From assembly GCA_016928395.1 (NCBI GenBank), contig JAFGKV010000319.1, positions 1-32,913 of the forward strand: DNA of 32,913 bases. Direction: 5' to 3'. This document shows, piece by piece, positions 17,774 to 32,595 of this stretch; position 1 is the stretch's first letter, and each line of letters begins with the position of its first letter. Both the position numbers and the translations under genes were made by a program. The notes beneath the pieces are model-generated. The model saw only the letters and a list, made by a program, of their open reading frames with translations. It was not told where the DNA came from and did not search any database. Origin of the DNA: Candidatus Fermentibacterota bacterium (GTDB lineage Bacteria; JAFGKV01).

Positions 17774-18460
17774 ATGGCATCGATTTCGACCCTCCCCGCC
17801 AAGGGAGCGTACACCCGGTCTCTCGGCAGGGTCTTGGCCTTTCGAAAGCCCCGCCGTGAGGAAGAAGATCAGGCATTGGCTCTCATGGACGATTCAGACG
17901 ATGGTCTGATGGTCAGGGTGAAGCGCGGAGACCACCAGGCATTCAGGACACTGGCGGAGCGCTACCGGATTCGCGTATTCCGCTTCATCTACAAGATGAT
18001 TCACGATGAGGAGGTCGCCGAGGACCTCGCCCAGGAGACCTTCCTGCGGGTGTTCAAGCGAGCCAATACCTACAAACCCGGCAGCAACTTCTCCATCTGG
18101 CTCTACACCATCGCCAAGAACCTCACCTTCAATCGAGTTCGGGACGAGAAGCGCCAGCCTTTGGGATTGGCGGATCAGGTTGACCAACACTACTGGGATC
18201 TCGCCACGGCCGATGGAGGGCCCGATCCCCTGGAGATGAGCCAGAGGGAGGAAATTCGACGAACGGTGAACTGGGGCCTGGCGCAGTTGCCTCCGAAGTT
18301 TAAATCGGCAGTAATCCTCCGTGACATTGAGGGGTTCGAATACGAGCAGATCGCGAAGATCCTCCGCTGTCCGCTGGGTACGGTCAAATCTCGCGTAAAC
18401 CGAGGAAGGCTGCGGTTGAGGGATCTTATCAAGGATCGGATTCATGAGTATATCGAGTGA
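17774..18460 (+). CDS. ECF-type RNA polymerase sigma factor (RpoE-like)
   Basis: A 228-residue sigma70-family protein of the extracytoplasmic-function group. Region 2 is at about 50-120 (RVFRFIYKMIHDEEVAEDLA followed by QETFLRVFK, then FSIWLYTIAKNLTFNRVRD). Region 4 is at about 160-220 (LAQLPPKFKSAVILRDIEGF, then GTVKSRVNRGRLRLRD). Regions 1.1 and 3 are missing, as expected. The first 40 residues form a basic extension before the usual ECF start. ATG 17774 is supported by CAGGAG five bases upstream; Met38 lacks a ribosome site. It is followed at once by an anti-sigma gene and an HtrA-like gene, the classic rpoE-rseA-degP order for an envelope-stress regulon. Confidence 0.93.
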   Translation: MASISTLPAKGAYTRSLGRVLAFRKPRREEEDQALALMDDSDDGLMVRVKRGDHQAFRTLAERYRIRVFRFIYKMIHDEEVAEDLAQETFLRVFKRANTYKPGSNFSIWLYTIAKNLTFNRVRDEKRQPLGLADQVDQHYWDLATADGGPDPLEMSQREEIRRTVNWGLAQLPPKFKSAVILRDIEGFEYEQIAKILRCPLGTVKSRVNRGRLRLRDLIKDRIHEYIE

Positions 18461-18500
18461 CTCGCCGTCTGTTTCGGACGGCTAGAGGGAGGTGGAATCG

Positions 18501-19079
18501 GTGCATTGTCGAATAGTGCGAGCCAGGTTGTCAGAGTTCCTGGATTCTTACCTGAACCCCCGGCATCGAGAAGAGCTGGAGGCGCATCTGAAGGTGTGCC
18601 CTGAGTGCCGGCAGCTTGCCCGCGAGATGCGACGCGTGCGCGACGTGCTCGGCGATCTGGATCAGATCGCTCCGTCAGCGACGCTTGCGTCTCGGATTGA
18701 CCGCATACCGTGGGAGACCTCTCAAGACCGGTCATGGCCCATGCCCAGCGCGACCCGCCTGGGGTTGGTTGCCATGACGGTTGCCGCAGCCGTCATGGTG
18801 ATTGTGCTGCGTCCGGCGATGACGGCCAAGGTTCCTCCCGGTCCGACGGCATCCATTCAGGAGCAGACCAAGTCTGGCGTGGTGGAGGTTCACGAGCTCA
18901 TGCTTCCCGAGGAGCGCGCTGAGAGATTCTCACCACAATTGGCGAGGGTAGCCTTGGCGCGGGGGGTTCCTCTGGAAGGCCCGGCAGTCTCTGTGACCGC
19001 GACGCCCGGGCAGACACGGGATGATCTGATCTGGCAGGAAGTACGGCGAGTCTCCGCGTGCTCGCGCCGGTCGTTCTGA
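18501..19079 (+). CDS. Zinc-finger anti-sigma factor, single-pass membrane protein
   Basis: A 192-residue protein with an N-terminal zf-HC2 / ZAS-type domain: Cys3, then His29-x3-Cys33-x2-Cys36 in AHLKVCPEC. A single membrane helix follows at about 87-103 (LGLVAMTVAAAVMVIVL) and then an extracytoplasmic tail of about 90 residues with no known domain. It should bind and hold the sigma factor encoded 40 bases upstream until an envelope signal arrives. GTG at 18501 is chosen because GGGAGG lies at suitable distance; the GTG at 18492 would overlap that ribosome site. Confidence 0.88.
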   Translation: MHCRIVRARLSEFLDSYLNPRHREELEAHLKVCPECRQLAREMRRVRDVLGDLDQIAPSATLASRIDRIPWETSQDRSWPMPSATRLGLVAMTVAAAVMVIVLRPAMTAKVPPGPTASIQEQTKSGVVEVHELMLPEERAERFSPQLARVALARGVPLEGPAVSVTATPGQTRDDLIWQEVRRVSACSRRSF

Positions 19080-19089
19080 CGACCGCCTT

Positions 19090-20235
19090 GTGAGCATCCT
19101 GTCCATGACGCGTCGCGTGAAGAGGCTCCTCAGTTCCGTGACCGGCCTTCTGGCTATTCCAGCCGCCGTGGCCGGGGGACAGGATCTTCTCCCTCAGCTC
19201 GATGCTGAGCTGAATGCATTGGTTGCCGCCACACGCCGGCACGTCGTGACCGTTATCGTGCCCCAAGATGGTGACGATGGCCCGGTTCGTTCGGTGTTGA
19301 TTGCATCCGGTCTGGCTCTCGACGACTCCCTCGTGGTCACCGCAGCAAGCGTGGTAACTCGAGGCCACCACGTGGAGGTGATCCCATCAGGCCTTGACCC
19401 CCGGCCTGCCTCCCTGGCGGGCGTCGATATCTTGGGGGGCGTTGCCCTTCTCAGGACCTATGGCCTGACGCCTACTGACGCAGGACTCCGCAGCATTGAC
19501 AACCCCGTTGCGTTGGGGGACCTGGTCTGCCTTGTCACCAGCAGTTTTGAGGAGCGTGCCGGCTACAGCGTGGGGTCGGTGGTTTCGGTCCGGCCGGCCG
19601 GCATGAACGGGCAGGTGACCACAGAGATCGAGGCGAGCACCACGCCGGTACCCGGCAGCGCAGGAGCCGTTCTCGTCAACAGCAGAGGCCAGTTATCCGG
19701 CCTCGTGGTTGGTCGGCCGGGACGCCAGGCAGGCCTCATGACTGCGGGCGATGCGGGAGTGCTGGCTATCCCTCTTCGAGACGTCTTGCGCATCGCCGAC
19801 GAGCTGAAGCGCCACGGAAAGGTGGGGCGGAACTGGCTCGGGGTGAGTGTGCAGGAGATGACTCCGGCCCTCCGGGAGATCCTCGGCGTCGAGCCTTCTA
19901 CCGGCGTCATCATCATCGCGGTGGATAAGGACGGGCCGGCCGTCAAATCCGGCCTTGAGCTCGGCGATGTCATTTTGCGCTGTGGCAATGATGTCATCAA
20001 AGATCCGGTCGGGCTGATGGAAGCGGTTGCGACTGCGCCGGCTGGCTCACGGTTGCGATTTGCCGTGTTGCGCAACGGAGAGACCATTCAGCTCCCCGTG
20101 ACCCTTGCCGAGCTGCCCATCCAAGACGGCGGCGTGGGGCTTGCCGAGCCCCCGCTCTCCTACGAAGAGCGAATTCGCGCGTTGGAGACTGAGATCTCCC
20201 GGCTCAAGTCCGCGGTCGAGCCTCCTCGCAAGTAG
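19090..20235 (+). CDS. HtrA/DegP-like PDZ protein with apparently degenerate catalytic triad
   Basis: About 381 residues: signal peptide or anchor (1-28), trypsin-like domain (40-230), PDZ domain (245-335; NWLGVSVQEM, GPAVKSGLELGDVILRCGND) and a short C-terminal coiled coil (EERIRALETEISRLKS). Aligned by eye to DegP, the catalytic His of VTAAHVV is Ser87 (VTAASVV). The Asp of SDIAL becomes Gly117 (GGVAL), and GNSGGALVN becomes GSAGAVLVN with Ala191 in place of the nucleophile. All three triad residues thus seem lost, so a chaperone or ligand-sensing role is more likely than proteolysis. It ends the sigma/anti-sigma operon, starting ten bases after the anti-sigma stop. GTG 19090 or ATG 19105 may be the start; neither has a clear ribosome site. 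Confidence 0.85.
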   Translation: MSILSMTRRVKRLLSSVTGLLAIPAAVAGGQDLLPQLDAELNALVAATRRHVVTVIVPQDGDDGPVRSVLIASGLALDDSLVVTAASVVTRGHHVEVIPSGLDPRPASLAGVDILGGVALLRTYGLTPTDAGLRSIDNPVALGDLVCLVTSSFEERAGYSVGSVVSVRPAGMNGQVTTEIEASTTPVPGSAGAVLVNSRGQLSGLVVGRPGRQAGLMTAGDAGVLAIPLRDVLRIADELKRHGKVGRNWLGVSVQEMTPALREILGVEPSTGVIIIAVDKDGPAVKSGLELGDVILRCGNDVIKDPVGLMEAVATAPAGSRLRFAVLRNGETIQLPVTLAELPIQDGGVGLAEPPLSYEERIRALETEISRLKSAVEPPRK

Positions 20236-20364: not shown

Positions 20365-23300
20365 CTAAGGATGGTCGATGAGCTGCTCGTGTTCCCCGAA
20401 TCGTCCGGAGTGTATGAGCTCCTGCTCAGAGGCATCCATGGCACGCACCATGTATGTCCAGTTGTGATCCGGATCTCCGAGACCCGTGCTGGTTGACCAT
20501 GTCGTCGTTGTGGCGGGTACGGTCGCCAGCCGATTACCCAAAGCCGGCGTGAAGTAGGCGTCATTGTCGGCGCCGTGGACCCAGTAGCTCGCAGCATCGG
20601 GGCGAGACGTCCAGGTGAGCACAAGCTGGTTCTCCTCCACCCCGCCTGAGAGAGTCATCGCCGTCGGCGCGTAGCCCGTCAGCGTGACTTCGTCAAGGCC
20701 CGCCTCGACAATCGAGCCGGGCGACACATCTGAAGCGATGAAGCGCAGGCGCACCGTGCTACTCAACTCGACATAGGTGTCCAGCACGAAGGTCTGCAGC
20801 GCCCAGCTACGGTCACTGACGTTGGTGCGCTCCAGGTCGACCCATGTGGCCCCGTCGTCCGTCGCCTGCACCACCCAGTAATCCAAGCCCGGTGAGCTAC
20901 CCGTATCGTTGGTATACCATCGCCGGTAGGTCAATGTCACGCCCGCATACGGCGACAAGTCCAGCCAGGGGCTGAGCACGGTGGTGGTGCCGTTGTCTAC
21001 ATCGTCGGCACCCTGGGTCGATCCAGGCGGATCATTGCCCGTGACGTAGCACATCACGCCCGGATCCGCCGTCGCGTCGTTTTCGGGCTGGACCTCGATG
21101 CTTCCCGACCACACACCGTTGGGATCGACGCGCACCCAGATGCCTGACGTGGCATTGTCACCCGCGGCGCCAACCGTCCAACCCTGGTCACTCTCCATGT
21201 CATGGTGCAGGATCTCCACCGACGCGAGCACCCAGAAGTCATACGTATCCGTACCCGACGGGTCACGGCTCTCGTTGGCCACACCGTCCGTGGCCTCCAC
21301 CCAGTAGCTGATCGACGTGTTGAGCGGCTGCCCGGGGATCTGGCCGCGGTGGAGACCCGTCGCCGCATTGATCAGTGTCAAAGGCACGTCCACCGCCGGG
21401 CCGCCGTTCACCTTGAAGTAAAGATGCGCGCCCGACAGCGACGTAAAGTCAGTGATGGTTGCTTCGACCACGTAGGGTCCCACCGTGTCATCCGTGGTGA
21501 GCAACACCGTGGTGTTCGAGATCTGGGGCCCGAGAATGTCGGTGAGCGCGAAATCAAGCTCGGTGGTCTCCCCTTCCGTGATGACCACATTCGGCACCGT
21601 CTCCGGCGCGAAGCTGAGGTGTTCCGCCCGTACGGTGTACATACCCTCCTCCACCGAACCCGTATAGTGGCCGCTGCTGTTACTCGCCAGCGTCTGATTC
21701 GTCTCCAGCAGCCGGATGGTTACCTCCTGCACCGGAGCGCCCCCGGCGCTGGCGTTGGTCACGTCGCCCTGGAGAGTGCCCAGATGCAGCGTCCCGATGG
21801 GCAGAATGCGAATCGCCCGCCCTGTGCCCAGGCTCGCTGCGCCGGGGCTGTAGTGGTTCCAGTAGGTGTACAGCAACCCGTCCGTGTGATCCTGATTCTG
21901 GATTCCAACCGTTACGTAGCCATCACGGCTGTCTGTGTTGTTCACCGTCTGGTACTGGAATAGGATTTCCCCGTCGCCCGTCGGCGTTGGATAGCAGCTC
22001 GGGTCGTACAGGAACACCTGGAAGTTCTGGGTCGCATTGCTGTAGTCGTTCTTCATCCGGCTCCATTGGATCCCGTACCGGTGATTCGCCGTGTCGTTCC
22101 AGTAGTAGACTCTGTTCGTGCCGCTCTGGTAGAGGTCGTCCCACATCGGACAGATTGCCGCCTCGGGTGCGCCGGCGCTGGGTAAGGTCGTGTTGGTGTA
22201 CGGTTTCTGGTACGTTTGCCCCATGACCACCCAGCCATTGGAGCAGATACTGATCTGGCTGTAGTCCTGCCCGTAGAAACGGAAGACGAACGGCAGGGCC
22301 CGGATCTTGGTGTCATCCTGCTCATAACCGAAGTCGGTCAGGCCGACATCGGTTCCCGGACCGCCGTAGGTCGGGTCGAGCTCCACCCATGCGTAGGTAG
22401 GCGCGTAGAAGTAGCCGACATCGGTGTTGTCGAACGCATAGTAACCGTACACGTCGGGGCCTGTCGGATCGACGGTGGTGGCCGCGCCAACCGTAGAGGT
22501 GAACTCGACCACGTCCTGAGCTTGGCCGTTGAAGGTGAGCGTCAGGGTGAAGTGGGCCTTGTGGCCCTTGACGCAATCGCTGGCGATACTCAGGGCGAAG
22601 GGGTTTGCGGTATTCTCGTTGGAGCCCCCCGCGGCGATGGTGCCCCAACCGCCCGCGCCATCGGTGACGTCGATCCAGGGGCTGTCGGTGCTCAATTCAC
22701 CGGTCACGGAGACCCCGTCAATGCTACCCACATTGCCGATTCTGATGCTCAGCGTGCCCGATTCACCGGGATCCAGAGTTGTCCCACCCCCGCCCCAGGT
22801 GAAGTCCTCCACCTCGAACGCCGCACTCTGCACTGTGAGTTCGATCAGCGACGTCCAGACTGATGCACCGCTATGCGCCGTCAGGTCAAGTGCCAGCACA
22901 TGGCCATCCGGAATCGTCGGGGCCACGCCGAAGTCGAAGTCTTCAGCGCTCCACACGGTTGCCCCTGCGCCAATAGTGCCGAAGGTCTCCTCGGCGTCGG
23001 TGATGGTGACATAGGGATCGGAGGTCGACAGAGTGGCGATGACGCCCGTGACTGCGGATGTGCCGTGGTTGTGAAGGGAGACCGGCAGTTCGATGATCTC
23101 GGCCGGATTGACGATGCCATTGCCGTTGCCCGAGCTGGCGCCCGACGCATCGTCATCCACGATGCAGCCCTCGTAGCCGGCGAAAGACTCCATCGAGCCA
23201 AAGACTATCTGACCCAGATGGGGGAAGCAGTTGTGCTTCGTGACCGTGACCAGAGCCTGTCCCGCGGTGGCGGATACCGGCAGGTTGACGCGACCCGAGA

Positions 23301-25167
23301 AATCGCTGTAGCCGCTCACGAGGGAGCCACTCCCGTGGATCCCATCGGCTTTGTAGATGGTCACCAAGGCGCCCGCCACCGGCAGGGTGCCCGCGGTGAT
23401 GGTGACCGGCACCGAGTTCGCTCCCACAGCCAGCAGGCTGGGGTAGGTCACGGACAGAACGGCCGGATGCGCCGTCCACATGTCCGTTGCCGGATCGCCC
23501 ATGAGGTTGTTCCACACCGAGAAGCGTTGCGCTACGTCACCGTCATACTGGTAGTTGAGGTAGAGGTTCAGCTTGCCCCGCGAGTGGGCGGTGCCCAGGC
23601 GGTGATCGGAGCCGTTGACAGCGCCGTCCCACGTTCCGGCGTAGTAGCAGTTGTTGTAGCGGGTATGCGTGCTCCACGTCGCGGTTCCCACGGAGCCGAT
23701 TCCCCCACCATTGGCGTTGCGGAGAAACGCCTCGGAGTTACAGGTCTCGCCGGCGAAATCGCCCGAGCCGCAGGTGGGGATGATCGCCAAGGGTAGTTCA
23801 TACCCATTGGTCAGGCCGCCGATTGTCGTCGTGGTGATGCCGCTCATGCCCAGATAGCCCCGGTAGCCGAACACACTCAGCCCCTGGTTGACGCTGGCGG
23901 TCATCTGGCTAACCCAGGGGCTCGAGAAGATGGTGTCGACCTGCGTGTAGCCCGCCCCCAGCAGCTGTTTCTTCAACCACTGGTTAATGTAGATGCAGGT
24001 GATGCCCGACGAGGATGGATCACCCAGAAGGCACGCTCGGGTGAACCATCCCGAATCACCGGTGGGCGGGGTGGTCTCATAGGTCATTATCTTGGTGACG
24101 ATCGCCTGGAGGTTGGTCAAGCCGGTGTGCGATAGGCGGCCGATGTGCACATCAGCCAGGTAGTCGCTCCCTTCCAGCATCGTGTACGAATGATCCCCCT
24201 CACCGCCGGAGTAGCTGCCCGTGGCAACGCCGTATGTGCCGTCGGCATCACCCACGATGGTGACGAACTCCAAGGGGGGGTCTGCGGCGTTGTAGATGTT
24301 CTGGATGTAGTTCTTGATTGATGTGGTCGTAGTGCCAGTCTGCGTCGTCGAGGCAGTCAGCACGGTGTAGCCCTGCCTCGTGCGCCAGTCGATCAGGGGC
24401 TGCACTGCCGTGAGCACCCCGCTGGCGGAGGAGTGGATTACCAGATAGGTTCCCGGCCCCACATCCGCGTCGCCGCGCCCCATGGAAAGGTCGTAGTTGA
24501 GCACCACATCCTGGTACATCCGGTGAAACGAATCCGGAATCCTCTTGCGCTGCAGAGGCGCCGCGTTCCGCGAATCCTGACCGCCAAACTGCACTTCCAC
24601 CTCAACCCGCGTGGTTATCGTCACCTCCCCGACCACTGGATCGTAGGCCACGGGGTTGAAGGTAAGTGGCACGACTCGCAGGCTGTGCAGGAGCGCGGGC
24701 GCGCCAGCCTCGGCTGCCGGAGCCGCCGGGCCTGGCCTCTGTGCGTACGCCTCACGGTCGATTACGAGCTCTTCACCTTCGTCAGGCTGCACGGGCAGAA
24801 GCCGAAACCCAGAGAGGACCATGCTTTCCCGCTCCAGGACGTTGACCGATACTCCCACATTGCTGGGAATCGCTACGAGCCGGGTGATCACGGGAAGCCC
24901 AGGGTGCCCGACCTCTCCACGGATATCGCCACCGGGGATGGTCAGCGCCTGGAATATCTCGCCTTCGATAGCGAGTTGCTCCTGTTGCAGAGACGGCAGC
25001 CGCATCTCCAGGCGGAGGGAAGCGCTGGTCGCTTCCAACACGATGAATGCGGGTTCTGCAGCGCCAACCAAGGGGTCAACCAAACGTATGTCTGGAGATT
25101 CGGCTGCATTGCTGACAGCAACCAGGAGCAGCATGCAGATAGGACTCAGCACGGTAAAGCGGCGCAT
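20365..25167 (-). CDS. Large secreted C25 (gingipain)-family peptidase-like protein
   Basis: A 1600-residue exported protein. Order: signal peptide (1-21), C25-type propeptide (about 50-235), peptidase C25 domain (about 240-565), Ig-like domain (570-650), two CARDB/NEW3-like beta domains (680-900), a nidogen-like domain (about 930-1140), a carboxypeptidase-regulatory-like domain (IGTLHLGTLQGDVTNASAGG), an Ig-like segment, a jelly-roll/MAM-like domain (ILHHDMESDQGW), and an Fn3-like C-terminus. The nucleophile Cys466 is present (IIPTCGSGDFAG), as is the GDPATDMW end motif. Where gingipains have the catalytic His in GHG, this protein has FGYRGYLGMSG (Arg436). No type IX sorting tail or GlyGly-CTERM is seen at the C-terminus. 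ATG 25167 has GGAGG five bases upstream. Activity is therefore uncertain; an adhesive or degradative surface role fits. Confidence 0.88.
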   Translation of the reverse strand: MRRFTVLSPICMLLLVAVSNAAESPDIRLVDPLVGAAEPAFIVLEATSASLRLEMRLPSLQQEQLAIEGEIFQALTIPGGDIRGEVGHPGLPVITRLVAIPSNVGVSVNVLERESMVLSGFRLLPVQPDEGEELVIDREAYAQRPGPAAPAAEAGAPALLHSLRVVPLTFNPVAYDPVVGEVTITTRVEVEVQFGGQDSRNAAPLQRKRIPDSFHRMYQDVVLNYDLSMGRGDADVGPGTYLVIHSSASGVLTAVQPLIDWRTRQGYTVLTASTTQTGTTTTSIKNYIQNIYNAADPPLEFVTIVGDADGTYGVATGSYSGGEGDHSYTMLEGSDYLADVHIGRLSHTGLTNLQAIVTKIMTYETTPPTGDSGWFTRACLLGDPSSSGITCIYINQWLKKQLLGAGYTQVDTIFSSPWVSQMTASVNQGLSVFGYRGYLGMSGITTTTIGGLTNGYELPLAIIPTCGSGDFAGETCNSEAFLRNANGGGIGSVGTATWSTHTRYNNCYYAGTWDGAVNGSDHRLGTAHSRGKLNLYLNYQYDGDVAQRFSVWNNLMGDPATDMWTAHPAVLSVTYPSLLAVGANSVPVTITAGTLPVAGALVTIYKADGIHGSGSLVSGYSDFSGRVNLPVSATAGQALVTVTKHNCFPHLGQIVFGSMESFAGYEGCIVDDDASGASSGNGNGIVNPAEIIELPVSLHNHGTSAVTGVIATLSTSDPYVTITDAEETFGTIGAGATVWSAEDFDFGVAPTIPDGHVLALDLTAHSGASVWTSLIELTVQSAAFEVEDFTWGGGGTTLDPGESGTLSIRIGNVGSIDGVSVTGELSTDSPWIDVTDGAGGWGTIAAGGSNENTANPFALSIASDCVKGHKAHFTLTLTFNGQAQDVVEFTSTVGAATTVDPTGPDVYGYYAFDNTDVGYFYAPTYAWVELDPTYGGPGTDVGLTDFGYEQDDTKIRALPFVFRFYGQDYSQISICSNGWVVMGQTYQKPYTNTTLPSAGAPEAAICPMWDDLYQSGTNRVYYWNDTANHRYGIQWSRMKNDYSNATQNFQVFLYDPSCYPTPTGDGEILFQYQTVNNTDSRDGYVTVGIQNQDHTDGLLYTYWNHYSPGAASLGTGRAIRILPIGTLHLGTLQGDVTNASAGGAPVQEVTIRLLETNQTLASNSSGHYTGSVEEGMYTVRAEHLSFAPETVPNVVITEGETTELDFALTDILGPQISNTTVLLTTDDTVGPYVVEATITDFTSLSGAHLYFKVNGGPAVDVPLTLINAATGLHRGQIPGQPLNTSISYWVEATDGVANESRDPSGTDTYDFWVLASVEILHHDMESDQGWTVGAAGDNATSGIWVRVDPNGVWSGSIEVQPENDATADPGVMCYVTGNDPPGSTQGADDVDNGTTTVLSPWLDLSPYAGVTLTYRRWYTNDTGSSPGLDYWVVQATDDGATWVDLERTNVSDRSWALQTFVLDTYVELSSTVRLRFIASDVSPGSIVEAGLDEVTLTGYAPTAMTLSGGVEENQLVLTWTSRPDAASYWVHGADNDAYFTPALGNRLATVPATTTTWSTSTGLGDPDHNWTYMVRAMDASEQELIHSGRFGEHEQLIDHP

Positions 25168-25249
25168 TGTGGCCTCCGGGGATGCTGCAGTTGGAACGTA
25201 AGGGTGAGAGAATCCTCACTGTGCGGGGGCAGAGTGCCGCCAGGTCAGG

Positions 25250-25269
25250 GACTCATGGGCACATGAGTC
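25250..25269. promoter_or_regulatory. Perfect palindrome upstream of the C25 gene
   Basis: GACTCATG and CATGAGTC are perfect 8-base arms around GGCA, 83 bases before the C25 start and 190 bases past the serpin stop on the minus strand. Its symmetry and position suit an operator or an RNA hairpin. No T-tract follows, so it is not an obvious terminator. Confidence 0.4.
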
Positions 25270-25461
25270 GATGACAGCGGGGAATGGCATGTGTCGGAGG
25301 CCGCAATTTGATCCCTAATGCCGATCGAGTCAAGCACCTTCGCTCTGCTGACCTGAGCGGATTCCTTACTGTGGAGGCCGGAGCTTTCCCGGCCGTCCTG
25401 AGAAACCACCGTGTTCGCGATCGCGGCGACCAGCGAATCTACCGCACTATGCTCCAGACGC

Positions 25462-26673
25462 CTACTCCCTCGCTACAGACAAAGGGTCGACGAGCCTCCC
25501 GATGAAGAGAATGGAGCCTGTGCGATGCTCCCGGATCAGGAAGATAAACGGCCGATCAACCACGAACGAGGCGGGGCCGCCGCCGCGCTTGAGAACCACC
25601 GCCGTTGCGGCCGAGGCTTCGGTGCCCTCCTCGGTAACATCCACGAAGGCCTTGTGGATCACATTGCTGATGAACAGGTCCTTCCTCCCGGTCATGCCTG
25701 AGAAGTCTGCGCCTTCGAACGCATGGGGCATCCCCATGGAGGCCAGGGTCTCGACCAGCTCATATCGGGCCGTCATGGAAAACCGCGGCAGCATGAGCGC
25801 CAACTCCTGTGGCGTAGCCTCTGCCAGGTCCCGGAGCCAGCGGTCTAGGTTCTCCCATGTGAGCTGATGCTCGACCGACTCCAGCGGCAGGCCGGAATCA
25901 GGCAGGATGATCACCATGGAGAGCCCGCCTTTGGCATAGGGCAGTTCCGCGAGCCGAAACCCATCGTGCGCCAAGAGCCTTAGCGAAACCCTCTGCGACA
26001 TCATGGGCACGGTCACCGTGCTGTCTGGAGTGAGGTGGAACGGGCCGTCCGTCGTGGCGGCCGGATCGAACCGATACTGCCATGGCGCCTTGAAGTAGAC
26101 CGCATTGCACAGGACCAGCCTCGTCAGAGAGGTTACTAGTCCGGGAGGAATGAGATCCTTGATGGTACCATTGGTCTTGTCTTCGGCCCACGTATTGATG
26201 CGCTCCCGGGCCACATCCGCGGCGCGGATGAAATCGACCAGAAAGACCTTCGCGCCGTAGCGGTTGGTAGTCAGATCGAGAAAGGCCGGGAGGAATCGGT
26301 AGCCGTCCTGAGCCCAGAGTGAGTTCGCCACCTGGAAGGTGACCGAGCCACCGTGCACCGACCCCAGTGCCTTCTGAAGCCCTCCTAGAGCCTGATGCTG
26401 TCTCTCCTGGCCCAGGGAGAAGTAGAGCACCGTCGCCATTTCCTGCTCTGTGATAGTTCGTGCACCGGCATAGGTCATCGCCAGCGCTGTCGAGATGCTA
26501 TAGGGAGACAAGAACACATTACCGCCGGGCTCGCTGATCTTCCGATAGAGATCGCAGGCAAACCGGCCGTTGCCTTCCACCACGGCCACCAGATCATCGG
26601 CGGACGACACCCCTGCGTGCCCCACAGTGGCCGCCCCCATCACCACGGCATACGTGATTGCCATGAGTCGCAT
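25462..26673 (-). CDS. Secreted serpin (serine protease inhibitor family)
   Basis: A 403-residue serpin with a signal peptide (MRLMAITYAVVMGAATVGHA). Serpin landmarks are NVFLSPYSISTALAMTYAGA, NAVYFKAPWQ, LPYAKGGLSMVIILP, ISNVIHKAFVDVTEEGTEAS and the C-terminal DRPFIFLIREHRTGSILFIG. The hinge EEGTEASAAT is of inhibitory type (small residues at P15-P9). The reactive loop continues AVVLKRGGGPASF, so the scissile bond probably lies near Lys362-Arg363-Gly, suggesting a target that cuts after basic residues. Serpins trap target proteases by covalent complex and can also inhibit cysteine proteases. The start is ATG 26673, six bases from AGGAGG; ATG 26676 is nearly equivalent. It lies between the rhomboid and the C25 gene on the same strand. 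Confidence 0.95.
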   Translation of the reverse strand: MRLMAITYAVVMGAATVGHAGVSSADDLVAVVEGNGRFACDLYRKISEPGGNVFLSPYSISTALAMTYAGARTITEQEMATVLYFSLGQERQHQALGGLQKALGSVHGGSVTFQVANSLWAQDGYRFLPAFLDLTTNRYGAKVFLVDFIRAADVARERINTWAEDKTNGTIKDLIPPGLVTSLTRLVLCNAVYFKAPWQYRFDPAATTDGPFHLTPDSTVTVPMMSQRVSLRLLAHDGFRLAELPYAKGGLSMVIILPDSGLPLESVEHQLTWENLDRWLRDLAEATPQELALMLPRFSMTARYELVETLASMGMPHAFEGADFSGMTGRKDLFISNVIHKAFVDVTEEGTEASAATAVVLKRGGGPASFVVDRPFIFLIREHRTGSILFIGRLVDPLSVARE

Positions 26674-26786
26674 CATGTTCCTCCTCGTCTGTACTGTCCG
26701 GTGCATGGCGTCGGCTTCCTACTGGTTGAACCGCTCTTGGAGCGCGCCGGATCCCCGGAAGGTTCAACGAACCCGTCAGACTATAG

Positions 26787-28088: not shown

Positions 28089-30698
28089 TCACTCCATAAC
28101 AGTTGTCTCGTAGCTCACGCCCTCCGGAACGTAGACCGGCACCTTGACCGTCACGGCCTTGCCGTCTGTCTGCTTGGTGCCGTCCACCGCCACGAACGAA
28201 GTGTACTGGCAGAGCAGGCGGTGCTGCAGGGAGGTCTGCGTGATTTCTTCCTTGAGCTCATCCGACGGCCACGACACCTCCTTGTCGGACAGCTCCGCAA
28301 GCTTCCAGCGTGCCCACACCGAACGGATCCCTGCATGTTCGGTCAACGCCTCATCGCGGGGCAATGGGATCGTGTGGCGCGAGGTGGTTGACCCCATGCG
28401 CCCGTGCACGTGGATCTGTCCTGAGCCGATTCTCTTGAAGCGACCGGTGAGTATGACCGGCCGGCCCACGAACAGGTCGGGGATTGTGGAGGGGTAAACG
28501 TCACTAACGTCCAATCCGCCCCAGTCGATCTCGATGTCGGTGAGTGCGGGACGGCTCATGCGCTCGTAGAACAGGTCGACCTTGTCGCCGGCGGCTTCGT
28601 TGAGGCCGATGTAGGCCACCGCGCCGCGGCCCAATCGTGCCAAGCCCTCGAGGAGGTAACGGTTCACCGACGTCCCGACCCCGAAGCTGAAGATCCGGGC
28701 ATCCTTCACCTTCTCATGCACCGCGGCGAAGATCTGGGCCTCGTTGCCGATGTAGCCATCGGTCATGAATGACACGATGCGGAACCTGCCGGGATCATGG
28801 GGGAAATCCAACGCCGCCTTGATGCCTTCGATCATCATGGTGCCGCCGCCGGAATGCAGTTCATCCACGTGGCGCAATGCCCGCATGACATTCTCAGGGG
28901 TGGCGGGAACGGGCAGCGGCCCGAGTCGTGATGCCCGTTCCGAGAAGCGGATGATCTGGAAGGTATCCTCTGGATGAAGGTTCTTGAGGCAGCGCCTCAT
29001 AGCCTCCTTGGCCTTGGCCAGCGGCGCGCCGTGCATGCTCCCCGAGCAGTCCAACACGAACACCATCTCCCGTGGCATGCGAGGGAGGTCAGAGAGCGAA
29101 GCCGGTGGCTGGAGGAATAGGGCGAAGTAGTCGCCCTTGTCGCCGCGATCGACCATGAGCGCGGTTTTGGTGGCGTTGCCGGCAGTGCGATACCTGAGCA
29201 CGAAGTCCTTGTCAGGGAGGCGATCATTGGGGCTCAACCGCACCACCGCCCGCGACTTCCGCGGGCGCTCCACCAGAATGGCGTGGCTGGAACTCGTCAC
29301 CTCCTCAACGGTGACGCCGGCATCGATATCCACCTGAATCGACAGGTGATGCCCGCCCATCTCTCCCGGCTTCAGATACTCGACCTCCACGGGTTGTCCA
29401 GAGATACCTGAGCTGCCCCGGGCGACCGCACCGATGCCCTGATTGAAGCCCGGCGGATTGAATCGAGGGCCGACCACCGTCGGGAACACGAACTCGTAGG
29501 CACCGTCGTCATAGGCTAGCGGCATGAAGAAGGTCGTCTGGACGTCGATGTCGTTGCCCGGCTCGATGTTGGCAACACGCTGGGTGAAGACATTGGGCCG
29601 TTCCTGCGACAGCAGGGCCGCACGATAGCCCATGGCCTTGGCCTCGTCGTAGATCCGTTGCGCCTCCTCTCGCTCTCGGATCACCCCCCGGATCTTGCGG
29701 TCGCCGATGATCATCTGGAAATCGGTCACCGCGGCGGTGGTCGGCAGCGGAAACACATACACGGCTTCGATCTTCTCGTTGTACGGGTTGTGATAGCTCT
29801 GGCGCACATCCACCGTGGCGATGAAGGCGTCGACTTGCCCCTTCACGTCGGTGTGCCGCAACGGCAGAGGGATCTCTTCTGGAGTGTCGGGCATCACCGC
29901 CTTGAGCTGTGGCGCCGCATACTCCGATGCTGGCTCCGACCCGTCCGACCGCTCAATGATCCACAGCTCGGTGGTCGGGCTGAGGGCGGCGAGGCTACTC
30001 TTGTCCAGTCGACCCGTACTCGCGCCCCGCACCGGCAACGGCGCGGCTCCAGGGAGCCCACTTGGGGGCTCATGGGGTGGGTGTTCACTGGGCGGTGGGG
30101 TGACCTTCGTGAGCGGCGGCGGAGTAAACACCGGTGCCGCGACCGCTGATGGCGCCTTCTTAGGGGGCCGTATCGGTCCCTCTACCATGCGCCTCGAATC
30201 GGTGACATCGGCCCTGATGATCGGACGATCCGCCACGATCTCAATCGCCTCGTAGCCGTCCACAACGGAGAGGTGCATCGAGAGGAAGCCCAGATCTGTG
30301 ACATAGCTGGCGGCAACGTAGACCTCTCTGACAATGAGATCCTTGTGTCCGAAGCTGGACAAGGTCACCGTGTGCCATCCGGGAGCCGCCCCCTTCACCC
30401 GAAACTGCCCCGCGCTGTCCGTGACGACGCCGGTATTCTCCCCATCAAGCAGGATGTGCACACCGGCCAAGGTCGGACCTTCATTCGAAACAACAACCGC
30501 CTCGATGCCACCTGTGCATCCTTGACACAGCCACCGGCTGAGACGACTACATGACACGGAGCCGAGCGCAACGACTGCGACTAGCGTTGCGACCGAAACT
30601 CGCATTGCCCGCGACAGTATGAGCACAAGCATGCTTCCTGTTCGATCAACACGCAGGGCTGACGATCCTGGGCTGGTCACTGATTGTGATGAATTCAT
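28089..30698 (-). CDS. Envelope VIT + VWA domain protein with N-terminal carboxypeptidase-regulatory-like domain
   Basis: An 869-residue exported protein. A hydrophobic segment (32-49) ends in VSC50, a plausible but poor lipobox. Residues 62-145 form a carboxypeptidase-regulatory-like domain (TLAGVHILLDGENTGVVTDS), followed by EIVADRPIIRADVTDS, which looks like the start of a TonB-receptor plug. A Pro-rich linker (175-225) leads to a VIT domain (about 270-400, HNPYNEKIEAVYVFPLP) and a VWA domain (about 545-710) with an intact MIDAS site: D550CSGS, Thr620 and MTDG (Asp647). VIT-VWA proteins bind partners in a metal-dependent way. ATG 30698 lies three bases after the upstream stop and has AGGAG/GGGAAG nearby; ATG 30632 and 30605 are alternatives giving a shorter signal. 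Last gene of a four-gene operon. Confidence 0.88.
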   Translation of the reverse strand: MNSSQSVTSPGSSALRVDRTGSMLVLILSRAMRVSVATLVAVVALGSVSCSRLSRWLCQGCTGGIEAVVVSNEGPTLAGVHILLDGENTGVVTDSAGQFRVKGAAPGWHTVTLSSFGHKDLIVREVYVAASYVTDLGFLSMHLSVVDGYEAIEIVADRPIIRADVTDSRRMVEGPIRPPKKAPSAVAAPVFTPPPLTKVTPPPSEHPPHEPPSGLPGAAPLPVRGASTGRLDKSSLAALSPTTELWIIERSDGSEPASEYAAPQLKAVMPDTPEEIPLPLRHTDVKGQVDAFIATVDVRQSYHNPYNEKIEAVYVFPLPTTAAVTDFQMIIGDRKIRGVIREREEAQRIYDEAKAMGYRAALLSQERPNVFTQRVANIEPGNDIDVQTTFFMPLAYDDGAYEFVFPTVVGPRFNPPGFNQGIGAVARGSSGISGQPVEVEYLKPGEMGGHHLSIQVDIDAGVTVEEVTSSSHAILVERPRKSRAVVRLSPNDRLPDKDFVLRYRTAGNATKTALMVDRGDKGDYFALFLQPPASLSDLPRMPREMVFVLDCSGSMHGAPLAKAKEAMRRCLKNLHPEDTFQIIRFSERASRLGPLPVPATPENVMRALRHVDELHSGGGTMMIEGIKAALDFPHDPGRFRIVSFMTDGYIGNEAQIFAAVHEKVKDARIFSFGVGTSVNRYLLEGLARLGRGAVAYIGLNEAAGDKVDLFYERMSRPALTDIEIDWGGLDVSDVYPSTIPDLFVGRPVILTGRFKRIGSGQIHVHGRMGSTTSRHTIPLPRDEALTEHAGIRSVWARWKLAELSDKEVSWPSDELKEEITQTSLQHRLLCQYTSFVAVDGTKQTDGKAVTVKVPVYVPEGVSYETTVME

Positions 30699-30701
30699 TG
30701 C

Positions 30702-31538
30702 TCACTTCCCTTCTCCTTGCTGTTCCTTTTCGAACGGCACCAGCTTCGTCTCGTCCTCCATCCTGGCGCCGCCGGGAGAGGCGACCGTCTGGAACGCCTT
30801 CTGTGTCCTTTCCTCGTCAGGGGGCAACATCCGCACAGCCGGGTTCAGCCCCATGTCGGTTCCAGGCTTGCACACGGGTGTGTCAGCTACCAAAGAGGCG
30901 ACTTCGTTCATGCCATCTTCGCGGGCGGGCACGACGCTACGACTGACGATGCGGCTTGTACCCTCCGGGCACCAAATCACCCTCATTCGTTCAGCAGTGA
31001 CAACGATTTCATCCATGACAGGAGGTTGCCTCTCCATCATGGAGACAGGTCCTACGGTGGTGCCGAGATCCGCTCTCACCGTCACCGAGTCCAGGACTGT
31101 ATCAGCGAACCCGACCATCGAAACCCTGACACGCCGGTTCCCAGATGGGACCCCAGCGATGGCGAATTTCCCCAGTTCATCAGTCGCCTGGCCCAACATC
31201 GTGCCCTCCACCATGACATTCGCATAGGCGAGCGGGGAGCCATCCTGTCGTAGGACCTTTCCGGCGATCTTTCCGGTTGCGGACGGACTCCCTGAGGTCG
31301 GGGGAGGCGTTGCCGGGGGCTTCGTGGACGCAGGCCTTCCTTGCACCATGGGTTGGTCTATCGCGGACGATGCGGCTGGCGGTTCCGCGGAGGACGAATC
31401 GGCCTTTTGCTGTTCTGAAAGCACGCCAGGCTCGTCCACGCCTTCTCTAGGCCGAAACCGGGCACAACCAGGCATCAGGAGGCCCGCCAGCATCACAATA
31501 AGAACCACCGCTGCCGTTTCACCTCGGTATCGCTTCAT
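30702..31538 (-). CDS. Lipoprotein with carboxypeptidase-regulatory-like domain and TonB-plug-like motif
   Basis: A 278-residue protein with a lipoprotein signal (VVLIVMLAGLLMPGC, Cys25), a Pro/Ser/Ala-rich linker (35-88), and a carboxypeptidase-regulatory-like beta-sandwich at about 90-168 (GKIAGKVLRQDGSPLAYANV, GTMLGQATDELGKFAI). Directly after comes MDEIVVTAERM (175-185), the typical junction to a TonB-dependent receptor plug, but no plug or barrel follows. Two Cys pairs may form disulfides (C190, C223). The last 29 residues (250-278) closely resemble the tail of the upstream cohesin-like protein. The start overlaps the upstream gene by four bases (ATGA). Probably outer-membrane anchored; function unknown. 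Confidence 0.8.
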   Translation of the reverse strand: MKRYRGETAAVVLIVMLAGLLMPGCARFRPREGVDEPGVLSEQQKADSSSAEPPAASSAIDQPMVQGRPASTKPPATPPPTSGSPSATGKIAGKVLRQDGSPLAYANVMVEGTMLGQATDELGKFAIAGVPSGNRRVRVSMVGFADTVLDSVTVRADLGTTVGPVSMMERQPPVMDEIVVTAERMRVIWCPEGTSRIVSRSVVPAREDGMNEVASLVADTPVCKPGTDMGLNPAVRMLPPDEERTQKAFQTVASPGGARMEDETKLVPFEKEQQGEGK

Positions 31539-32029
31539 CGCTCACCTTCTGGCGCTTCCCTCTGCTGTTCCTTGTCAAACAGTACCAGCTCGACGTTGGC
31601 CTTGATCTTGGCGCCGCCGGGAGAGGCGGCGGTCATGAGTGTGGCGTCAATGGCCGGCTCTTCCGGGCCGGTGATCCGAAGATGGATCCGGGCTACGTGG
31701 GACCGGCCCTTGGGCGCACGCCGGTGATCGGTGGTGAAGGCGGCGAGCACGAGCCGGCCACCTTCCATGCCTTCTTCGTCGAAGAATGGGGGATCACGGA
31801 AGGCGTCGGCCGTTCCGCCCTCGACGCCGACGATGCCGACGTGCGCCGCGTCGAATCGCAACTCGACCTGGTAGGCTACCAGCGGCTTCCTGCCGCTGTC
31901 GACGAAGAGATCCATGGCTTCGAATCGCAGGGCGGGCGCCTCTCGTGCCGTCATCGCCCAACCCTCGGCCACAAGGGCCGTTAGGATGAGGGCGCAGAGC
32001 ACACCAAACCCCGCTGTCTGTCGCATCAT
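31535..32029 (-). CDS. Secreted cohesin-like protein
   Basis: A 164-residue protein with a signal peptide (about 1-25, ending AEGWA). Residues 35-121 follow the pattern of cohesin-fold domains: LVAYQVELRFDAAHVGIVGV, a PPFFDEE turn, GGRLVLAAFTT and SHVARIHLRITG. Cohesins bind dockerin modules through such a nine-strand sandwich; this one is short and divergent, so the call is tentative. The C-terminus (ASPGGAKIKANVELVLFDKE) is shared with the downstream lipoprotein. The start ATG overlaps the stop of the upstream dockerin-bearing gene (ATGA), and its own stop overlaps the next start in the same way. It probably acts outside the inner membrane, possibly as a ligand of the neighbouring dockerin. 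Confidence 0.7.
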   Translation of the reverse strand: MMRQTAGFGVLCALILTALVAEGWAMTAREAPALRFEAMDLFVDSGRKPLVAYQVELRFDAAHVGIVGVEGGTADAFRDPPFFDEEGMEGGRLVLAAFTTDHRRAPKGRSHVARIHLRITGPEEPAIDATLMTAASPGGAKIKANVELVLFDKEQQREAPEGER

Positions 32030-32595
32030 GTCGTGCTCCTCTCCACGCTGACCGCCATGCGGGCAACCGCCCTGACGTCGGCGTCATCCACCGCTGCATC
32101 TCCTGTTAGATCCCATGAGTTCGCCGCAGGCTTGTCCCCTTGCAGGGCCACCGCCAGCAGGTAGGCATCGACGATATCGGTGGAACCATCGCGGTCCATG
32201 TCGGTAGCCGAAGCGATCTCGCCCCGTGGGCCGATGCGTTCGCGTACCGGCGAAACGACCAAGACTGAGAGGCCAATCAACACCACAGCTGCAGCCGCAG
32301 CCCAGACCGGATGCGCCAGAGCTCGGCGTCTTTGGCGCCCCCACCGGATCTCAGTGGCCCGGCGATCGATAGCTGAAAGCACTGCCCCGTCGGCATCCGC
32401 TGCGTTGGATCGAGGCGCAGCTCGGATGGCGCCTGCGCGGTGAGCAAGCACTTCGAGCTGCGCCAAGGCCGCAGTGCATTCCGGGCAGGTCCTGATGTGG
32501 GCCTCGATGTCCGGCGAAGCCTCCCCCGCCCGGGCGGCCTCGATGTCCGCGAGGTCGGGGTGGCCAGAGTTGTCTCGTGGATTCGATCTGTTCAT
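32026..32595 (-). CDS. Anti-sigma-like zinc-finger membrane protein with extracytoplasmic dockerin module
   Basis: A 189-residue protein. The N-terminal domain has His33-x3-Cys37-x2-Cys40 (AHIRTCPEC), typical of ZAS/zf-HC2 anti-sigma factors. One membrane helix follows at about 97-115 (WAAAAAVVLIGLSVLVV). The C-terminal 60 residues hold two dockerin-type calcium loops, DMDRDGSTDIVD (132-143) and DLTGDAAVDDAD (162-173), separated by about 18 residues as in type I dockerins. Topology places the zinc finger inside and the dockerin outside. ATG 32595 has GGAGG eight bases upstream; a GTG at 32610 overlaps the ribosome site. It leads an operon whose next gene is cohesin-like. No sigma gene lies between here and the window end, so the partner is elsewhere, perhaps the ECF factor at 17774. 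Confidence 0.85.
   Translation of the reverse strand: MNRSNPRDNSGHPDLADIEAARAGEASPDIEAHIRTCPECTAALAQLEVLAHRAGAIRAAPRSNAADADGAVLSAIDRRATEIRWGRQRRRALAHPVWAAAAAVVLIGLSVLVVSPVRERIGPRGEIASATDMDRDGSTDIVDAYLLAVALQGDKPAANSWDLTGDAAVDDADVRAVARMAVSVERSTT

Follow-up and report, generated by a model that had tools for sequence, protein, structure and literature searches.

A putative anti-sigma factor with an extracytoplasmic dockerin and its cohesin-fold neighbour in Candidatus Fermentibacterota: a candidate periplasmic input of an ECF sigma system

Related regulators and cohesin-dockerin pairs

In the SigI/RsgI systems of cellulosome-forming clostridia, a membrane anti-sigma factor with an extracytoplasmic sensor module is encoded in an operon with its sigma factor (PMC3413522, PMC6056542). 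The same holds for the gene studied here, gene A; it overlaps gene B, likewise on the minus strand, near the right-hand end of contig G000:C53 (32,913 bp) of the source genome, and this whole stretch of analyzed DNA is called the window. To read polysaccharide, RsgI proteins use sensors of the CBM, PA14 or GH type (PMC3413522, PMC6056542), whereas gene A carries a dockerin, whose presumed ligand is the protein encoded by its neighbour. Polysaccharide-binding modules of the SigI/RsgI kind (CBM, GH, PA14) are absent from gene A, the dockerin being the sole extracytoplasmic domain found, and the sigma factor is of the ECF type instead of SigI. With ECF sigma factors and their class-I anti-sigma factors, the locus shares sigma-70 regions 2 and 4, the layout of the inhibitor helices and a single transmembrane helix (PMC7406223). 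The Hx3Cx2C motif is present in some class-I anti-sigma domains and absent in others (PMC7406223), as it is within the gene A family. No periplasmic dockerin or cohesin partner of ECF class-I anti-sigma systems is described in the literature searched, and no paper on a dockerin-bearing anti-sigma factor was found in that literature.

The same two folds and a presumed calcium-dependent contact underlie the cohesin-dockerin pairs known from inside and outside cellulosomes, among them the proposed "planctosome", in which dockerins would hold peptidases (PMC6461901). In the cellulosome and planctosome enzymes are assembled on scaffolds, while here the dockerin is placed on a transcription regulator and the cohesin is a lone one, in an operon without enzyme or scaffold. 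Gene D of this operon is similar over nearly the whole TIGR03788 model (marine proteobacterial sortase target, VIT/VWA; E 3e-147), yet its score of 491.6 is under the cut-off of 551.65, and it has an N-terminal CarboxypepD_reg domain.

Genome annotations contain many dockerins outside cellulosomes, and to few of them a function has been assigned. The locus is read as an ECF sigma/anti-sigma system with a putative input module that is undescribed for such systems in the literature searched. It offers a defined two-protein pair, encoded by neighbouring genes across several phyla, and a clear prediction, namely that their contact governs a transcription regulator or determines where it is located. 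If true, this would be, as far as found, the first signalling use of a dockerin-cohesin pair. A family of secreted proteins so far without a name would gain a function, and VIT/VWA proteins of the cell surface would be tied to a sensor. The prediction could be tested directly in a cultured Planctomycete that has the operon.

Predicted architecture of the two proteins

Features of the operon and of the adjoining contig end are collected in Table 1. Gene A was counted from the ATG at 32595, and an alternative GTG start would add 5 aa. The original prediction, made from the letters, had placed an HxxxCxxC zinc finger, one membrane helix and two dockerin-type loops in this protein, and all of these were recovered in the sequence; the membrane helix and the dockerin were also seen in an AlphaFold model (40 sequences, mean pLDDT 80, dockerin >90). 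In the model, the N-terminal part forms a three-helix bundle and, after it, a long helix 4 (helices 15-22, 28-36, 38-57 and 65-93), and a fold search gave weak similarity to RseA, RslA, RsiW and ChrR. The motif is spelled H33-x3-C37-x2-C40; on it the Pfam model zf-HC2 reaches E 0.04, under the cut-off, and the same model is above the cut-off in two distant relatives (L108 and L109). The NCBIfam anti-sigma model NF052375 matches gene A at E 2.5e-7, likewise under that model's cut-off. The three-helix bundle, helix 4, the Hx3Cx2C motif and an ECF sigma neighbour, both in relatives and on contig C253, agree with the class-I anti-sigma (ASDI) layout, and the membrane helix is arginine-rich on its N-terminal flank. 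The architecture of gene A as a predicted class-I anti-sigma factor with one membrane helix and a dockerin outside the cytoplasm is close to certain.

Table 1. Coordinates of the operon features (window numbering unless a contig is named) and their basis
Feature	Position	Strand	Basis
Gene A, membrane-bound putative anti-sigma factor with extracytoplasmic dockerin, 189 aa	32026..32595	-	ORF; NCBIfam; AlphaFold model; fold matches
HxxxCxxC zinc-type motif of gene A anti-sigma domain (H33, C37, C40)	32476..32499	-	sequence reading; zf-HC2
Single transmembrane helix of gene A, residues 97-114	32254..32307	-	AlphaFold helix; hydrophobic segment conserved in A5
Dockerin domain of gene A, residues 126-185	32041..32220	-	VIA, PDB profile search, orthologues above Pfam cut-off
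Calcium loops of gene A dockerin	32167-32202 and 32077-32112	-	sequence
Gene B, secreted cohesin-fold protein, 164 aa	31535..32029	-	AlphaFold, PDB fold matches, homologues in 53 loci
Gene B parts: signal peptide about residues 1-26; cohesin domain residues 32-151	31577-31936 (cohesin)	-	model
Gene C, lipoprotein with CarboxypepD_reg domain	30702..31538	-	Pfam E 9e-15
Gene D, CarboxypepD_reg + VIT + VWA protein	28089..30698	-	VIT E 6e-36, VWA_3 E 2e-17
Contig-end sequence identical to 3' end of G000:C253	32870..32913	-	exact 44-bp overlap
Probable cognate ECF sigma gene	C253 5862-6368		62% identical to L019 sigma

The two 12-residue calcium loops read D132-M-D134-R-D136-G137-S-T-D140-I-V-D143 and D162-L-T-G-D166-A-A-V-D170-D-A-D173, each followed by a helix (141-152 and 171-182) modelled with pLDDT >90. 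The Pfam dockerin score of the window protein is under the cut-off (E 0.15) and Pfam is silent on gene B, so this reading of patterns needed independent support. Such support came from orthologues, in which Dockerin_1 (PF00404) is above the cut-off at E 1e-7 (L018), 2e-8 (L019) and 6e-9 (L020), with a Pfam dockerin match at E <= 0.01 in 35 of 40 aligned gene A proteins. A profile built from these 40 proteins retrieved solved dockerins from PDB sequences at E 2e-8, and model residues 126-185 were aligned by VIA to the dockerin 2vn5_B (Z 8.5, rmsd 1.7, 56 residues). The dockerin first placed at residues 125-189 was thereby upheld, and by both the profile search and the fold matches its paired loops resemble dockerins and not generic EF-hands.

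Gene A overlaps gene B by four bases, ATGA (32026-32029), as originally described, and an overlap of the same kind joins genes B and C (31535-31538). Gene B matches no family of Pfam or NCBIfam, and a profile search of PDB sequences with it found nothing; with sequence families giving no answer, its cohesin identity relies on structure and on one distant relative. The AlphaFold model of gene B (17 sequences, pLDDT 89.2) gave 31 Foldseek matches at E <= 0.001, all 31 of them cohesin structures. After re-alignment with VIA, the first 48 rows were without exception cohesins (Z 11.1 to 7.1), followed by the first non-cohesin at Z 6.9, the best superposition having Z 11.1 and rmsd 2.6 over 116 residues, and the cohesin fold expected for the 164-residue protein was thus obtained by structure prediction. 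The distant relative is the homologue in the equivalent gene position of L107, where Pfam Cohesin (PF00963) matches at E 2.8e-5, with 24.8 bits against a cut-off of 24.1.

In regard to the face by which the two proteins could bind, gene B was placed on the 1OHZ cohesin by MAFFT and by hhalign, with the same register over residues 47-101. In 1OHZ, residues N37, D39, G123 and A125 are reported to contact the dockerin or govern its binding (PMC5772552), and likewise N37 and L83 (PMC12484212). N37, D39, L83, G123 and A125 correspond to A52, Q54, A97, A135 and P137 of gene B; A52 and Q54 are invariant in 31 close sequences, the positions for N37, D39, L83 and G123 are near-invariant, and P137 is not conserved. 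The mean entropy of the five positions is 0.68 bit, compared with 1.86 across the aligned columns as a whole; tested against random columns, this gives P of about 0.004. Such conservation, which may have other causes, is support for dockerin binding and not proof of it. The residues themselves differ from those in 1OHZ, N37 being replaced by A and D39 by Q. On the dockerin side, the first recognition pair of gene A (loop 1 positions 10-11) is hydrophobic, I141 and V142, and N37A in a cohesin is reported to broaden dockerin choice (PMC12484212); the change from Asn to Ala at position 37 may complement I141/V142.

The replaced contacts, and the divergence of gene B from cellulosomal cohesins past sequence detection (no match among PDB sequences), would also fit a dockerin that serves the anti-sigma factor only by sensing calcium or folding and does not bind gene B, which would have another ligand and share the operon by accident. 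This explanation is quite improbable, as the 1OHZ docking positions are among the most conserved of the gene B family, the loops match dockerins over generic EF-hands, and the hydrophobic positions 10-11 of loop 1 appear suited to the alanine of the cohesin. The pair also outlives the change of every other partner and is fused in one locus, as described in the next section. Binding of gene B by the gene A dockerin, presumably dependent on calcium, is likely.

Conservation of the pair and its genomic surroundings

Homologues of gene B were sought in GTDB genome contigs and then in whole-genome samples by phylum. In the GTDB scan they were found in Planctomycetota, Verrucomicrobiales (Verrucomicrobia), a Myxococcales MAG, Ca. 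Fermentibacteria and others. Among the whole-genome samples, a homologue occurred in 33 of 392 genomes of Planctomycetota (phylum of G104), in 2 of 288 from the phylum of the Verrucomicrobiales MAG (G108) and in 1 of 282 from that of the Myxococcales MAG (G112), usually as one copy per genome. At 53 cohesin loci, dockerin loops were sought on the same strand within the 800 bp that immediately precede the cohesin gene; at least one loop was present in 50 loci and two in 34, compared with 8 and 3, respectively, among 683 control ORFs from the same loci. The exceptions were two contig starts (L030 and L037; no dockerin in the 885 bp of upstream sequence available at L030) and a decayed dockerin (L099). 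The pairing, whose conservation in relatives had been set as a check, reaches far beyond the genus. Chance juxtaposition, or a misreading of low-complexity Asp-rich repeats, could be argued from the window gene A alone, with its Pfam dockerin score under the cut-off; it is extremely improbable in light of the orthologue Pfam scores and the fold matches, and is refuted by the conserved pairing. As the pairing recurs in about fifty loci, the pair is probably used for signalling and not for digestion.

The operon in the window has the order A-B-C-D. Gene D represents the downstream partner kept in the close family and is 59% identical to a Ca. Fermentibacteria protein. Gene C looks like a hybrid, with a lipoprotein signal and a CarboxypepD_reg domain like gene D and a cohesin-B-like tail, its C-terminal 60 aa resembling the second half of gene B (32% identity to B residues 97-159, 63 aa, E 1.7e-4); an equivalent was not seen in the other loci. 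The contig stops upstream of gene A, so that the operon's own sigma gene is off the contig. Genome-wide, exact copies of the 44-bp terminal sequence are restricted to the ends of the window contig and C253, and because the overlap is exact and unique to these two ends, the contigs were taken as adjacent; the sigma gene of C253 sits 445 bp from the contig end. The terminal sequence belongs to a dispersed ~44-bp repeat with an inner palindrome (TTGCCCGACTCGTTCGGGCAA), of which two further copies with one mismatch exist elsewhere in the genome, and this repeat probably broke the assembly here. A second copy of the operon in the source genome, on contig C287, consists of ECF sigma, TM-dockerin, cohesin-like and VIT-VWA genes, and the same order is found in L019 (record L022), a Ca. 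Fermentibacteria MAG of the same family. The original prediction was thus right about the gene pair and missed the wider module, to which an upstream ECF sigma gene, beyond the contig end, and a downstream VIT/VWA gene belong.

Pfam dockerins occur in the source genome at three places besides the gene A paralogue, all on contig C113, and no Pfam cohesin was found in it. Since dockerins are scarce and Pfam cohesins absent, yet both B-type genes of the genome directly adjoin a TM-dockerin gene, the pairing goes beyond chance. A cellulosome, with its scaffoldin of several cohesins and its dockerin-bearing enzymes, was considered and rejected on the same grounds, as far as Pfam models see, and the proposed non-cellulosomal use of the pair is supported.

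Regarding the other partners, 41 of the 46 loci with enough upstream sequence have an ECF sigma gene next to the pair, either co-directional or divergent, and a VIT/VWA gene lies downstream in 34 loci (the script count of 35 includes L113). L113 belongs to a distant group and has a YfbK-type VWA protein in place of VIT/VWA (L113:9438-11060, plus strand), which indicates that the VWA domain recurs beside the pair. In the close family outside the Ca. Fermentibacteria relatives, the zinc motif is missing and the anti-sigma match is weak. L035 and L101 no longer have the first calcium loop. In the most distant group (L104, L106-L110, L112, L113), sigma, dockerin protein and cohesin are still together with no VIT gene following them. 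The zinc motif of the anti-sigma factor is mostly canonical there, a long stalk is usual, and the cohesin is usually a lipoprotein. In L104 and L106-L110, a zinc-type anti-sigma domain occurs with a dockerin and a long stalk, either proline-rich or coiled-coil, and the cohesin is a lipoprotein. Finally, in L088, a single genome, one reading frame encodes both the TM-dockerin protein and the cohesin, joined through a short linker and lacking an internal signal peptide; this is read as a true fusion, because a sequencing frameshift would have kept the signal peptide.

A mirror-tree of A, B and sigma showed mostly shared descent, with a partial r of 0.27 for the correlation of A and B distances beyond such descent; given this small value and an unrelated sigma used in the window row, it carries little weight. 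No shared promoter motif was recognized upstream of the sigma genes or divergent operons, where the top motif was no better than shuffles, and no relative was found in viral contigs. In L036 (8775 onward), from a Phycisphaerales genome, the operon has a broken VIT gene, and the break is immediately followed by a transposase-like gene; a second operon copy is present elsewhere in the same genome (L115).

Possible roles of the dockerin-cohesin contact

Taken as a module, the locus would encode an ECF sigma/anti-sigma system whose periplasmic input is a calcium-dependent dockerin-cohesin contact, a reading that we consider reasonably probable and favour because the pair survives where all other partners have changed (L104, L106-L110) and because of the fusion in L088. 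Against it count the lack of a shared promoter motif, the calcium loop lost in L035 and L101, the decayed dockerin of L099, the weak anti-sigma match in much of the close family and the small partial r. According to this model, the N-terminal class-I anti-sigma domain of gene A would hold, and thus inhibit, an ECF sigma factor at the inner membrane, while the calcium-binding dockerin is displayed to the periplasm. The secreted gene B protein, a lipoprotein in distant relatives, would be the cohesin docking on gene A, and in the close family gene B would probably report on the VIT/VWA protein, as its outer partner or its cargo. A change in this complex, in cargo, calcium or the state of the cell envelope, would alter docking, after which gene A could be exposed to proteolysis or its helices rearranged, setting the sigma factor free. 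The freed sigma factor would probably transcribe the same operon. Control of the sigma factor by docking is about evenly balanced between true and false, and a wider proposal has roughly an even chance: a widespread ECF system of Planctomycetota and other phyla would receive its signal through such a contact, so far known for assembly, with a dockerin gated by calcium sensing whether its VIT/VWA-loaded cohesin is in place.

The main rival is recruitment without signalling, in which the dockerin anchors the cohesin, and hence the VIT/VWA protein, to the inner membrane in a structural complex of the envelope, with the sigma and anti-sigma factors merely setting the expression level. Dockerin-cohesin pairs are classically structural, which agrees with such a role. 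It is also favoured by the five loci that have enough flanking sequence and no adjacent sigma gene (L116/L025, L117/L031, L086, L105 and L111), among which L105 has neither a sigma gene nor an anti-sigma domain. There, a 99-aa protein consists of a membrane helix and a dockerin alone (L105:7707-8003, plus strand), and a cohesin lipoprotein gene is kept directly downstream. Together with the other sigma-less loci, L105 indicates that the pair can exist without an anti-sigma role. On the other hand, the ECF sigma gene adjoins the pair in the large majority of loci, and distant members have a full zinc-type anti-sigma domain on the dockerin's own chain, so that recruitment alone is unlikely and docking as an input to the sigma factor is preferred.

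Two further gene groups were noticed in the window. At 20365-26706 (minus strand), a gingipain-type peptidase C25 (1600 aa, with C25 propeptide) adjoins a serpin gene (414 aa, Pfam E 4e-117), and the two could be a protease-inhibitor pair. At 17774-20235 (plus strand), a separate, ordinary operon encodes an ECF sigma factor, a zinc-type anti-sigma factor and a PDZ/trypsin-like (HtrA-type) protease.
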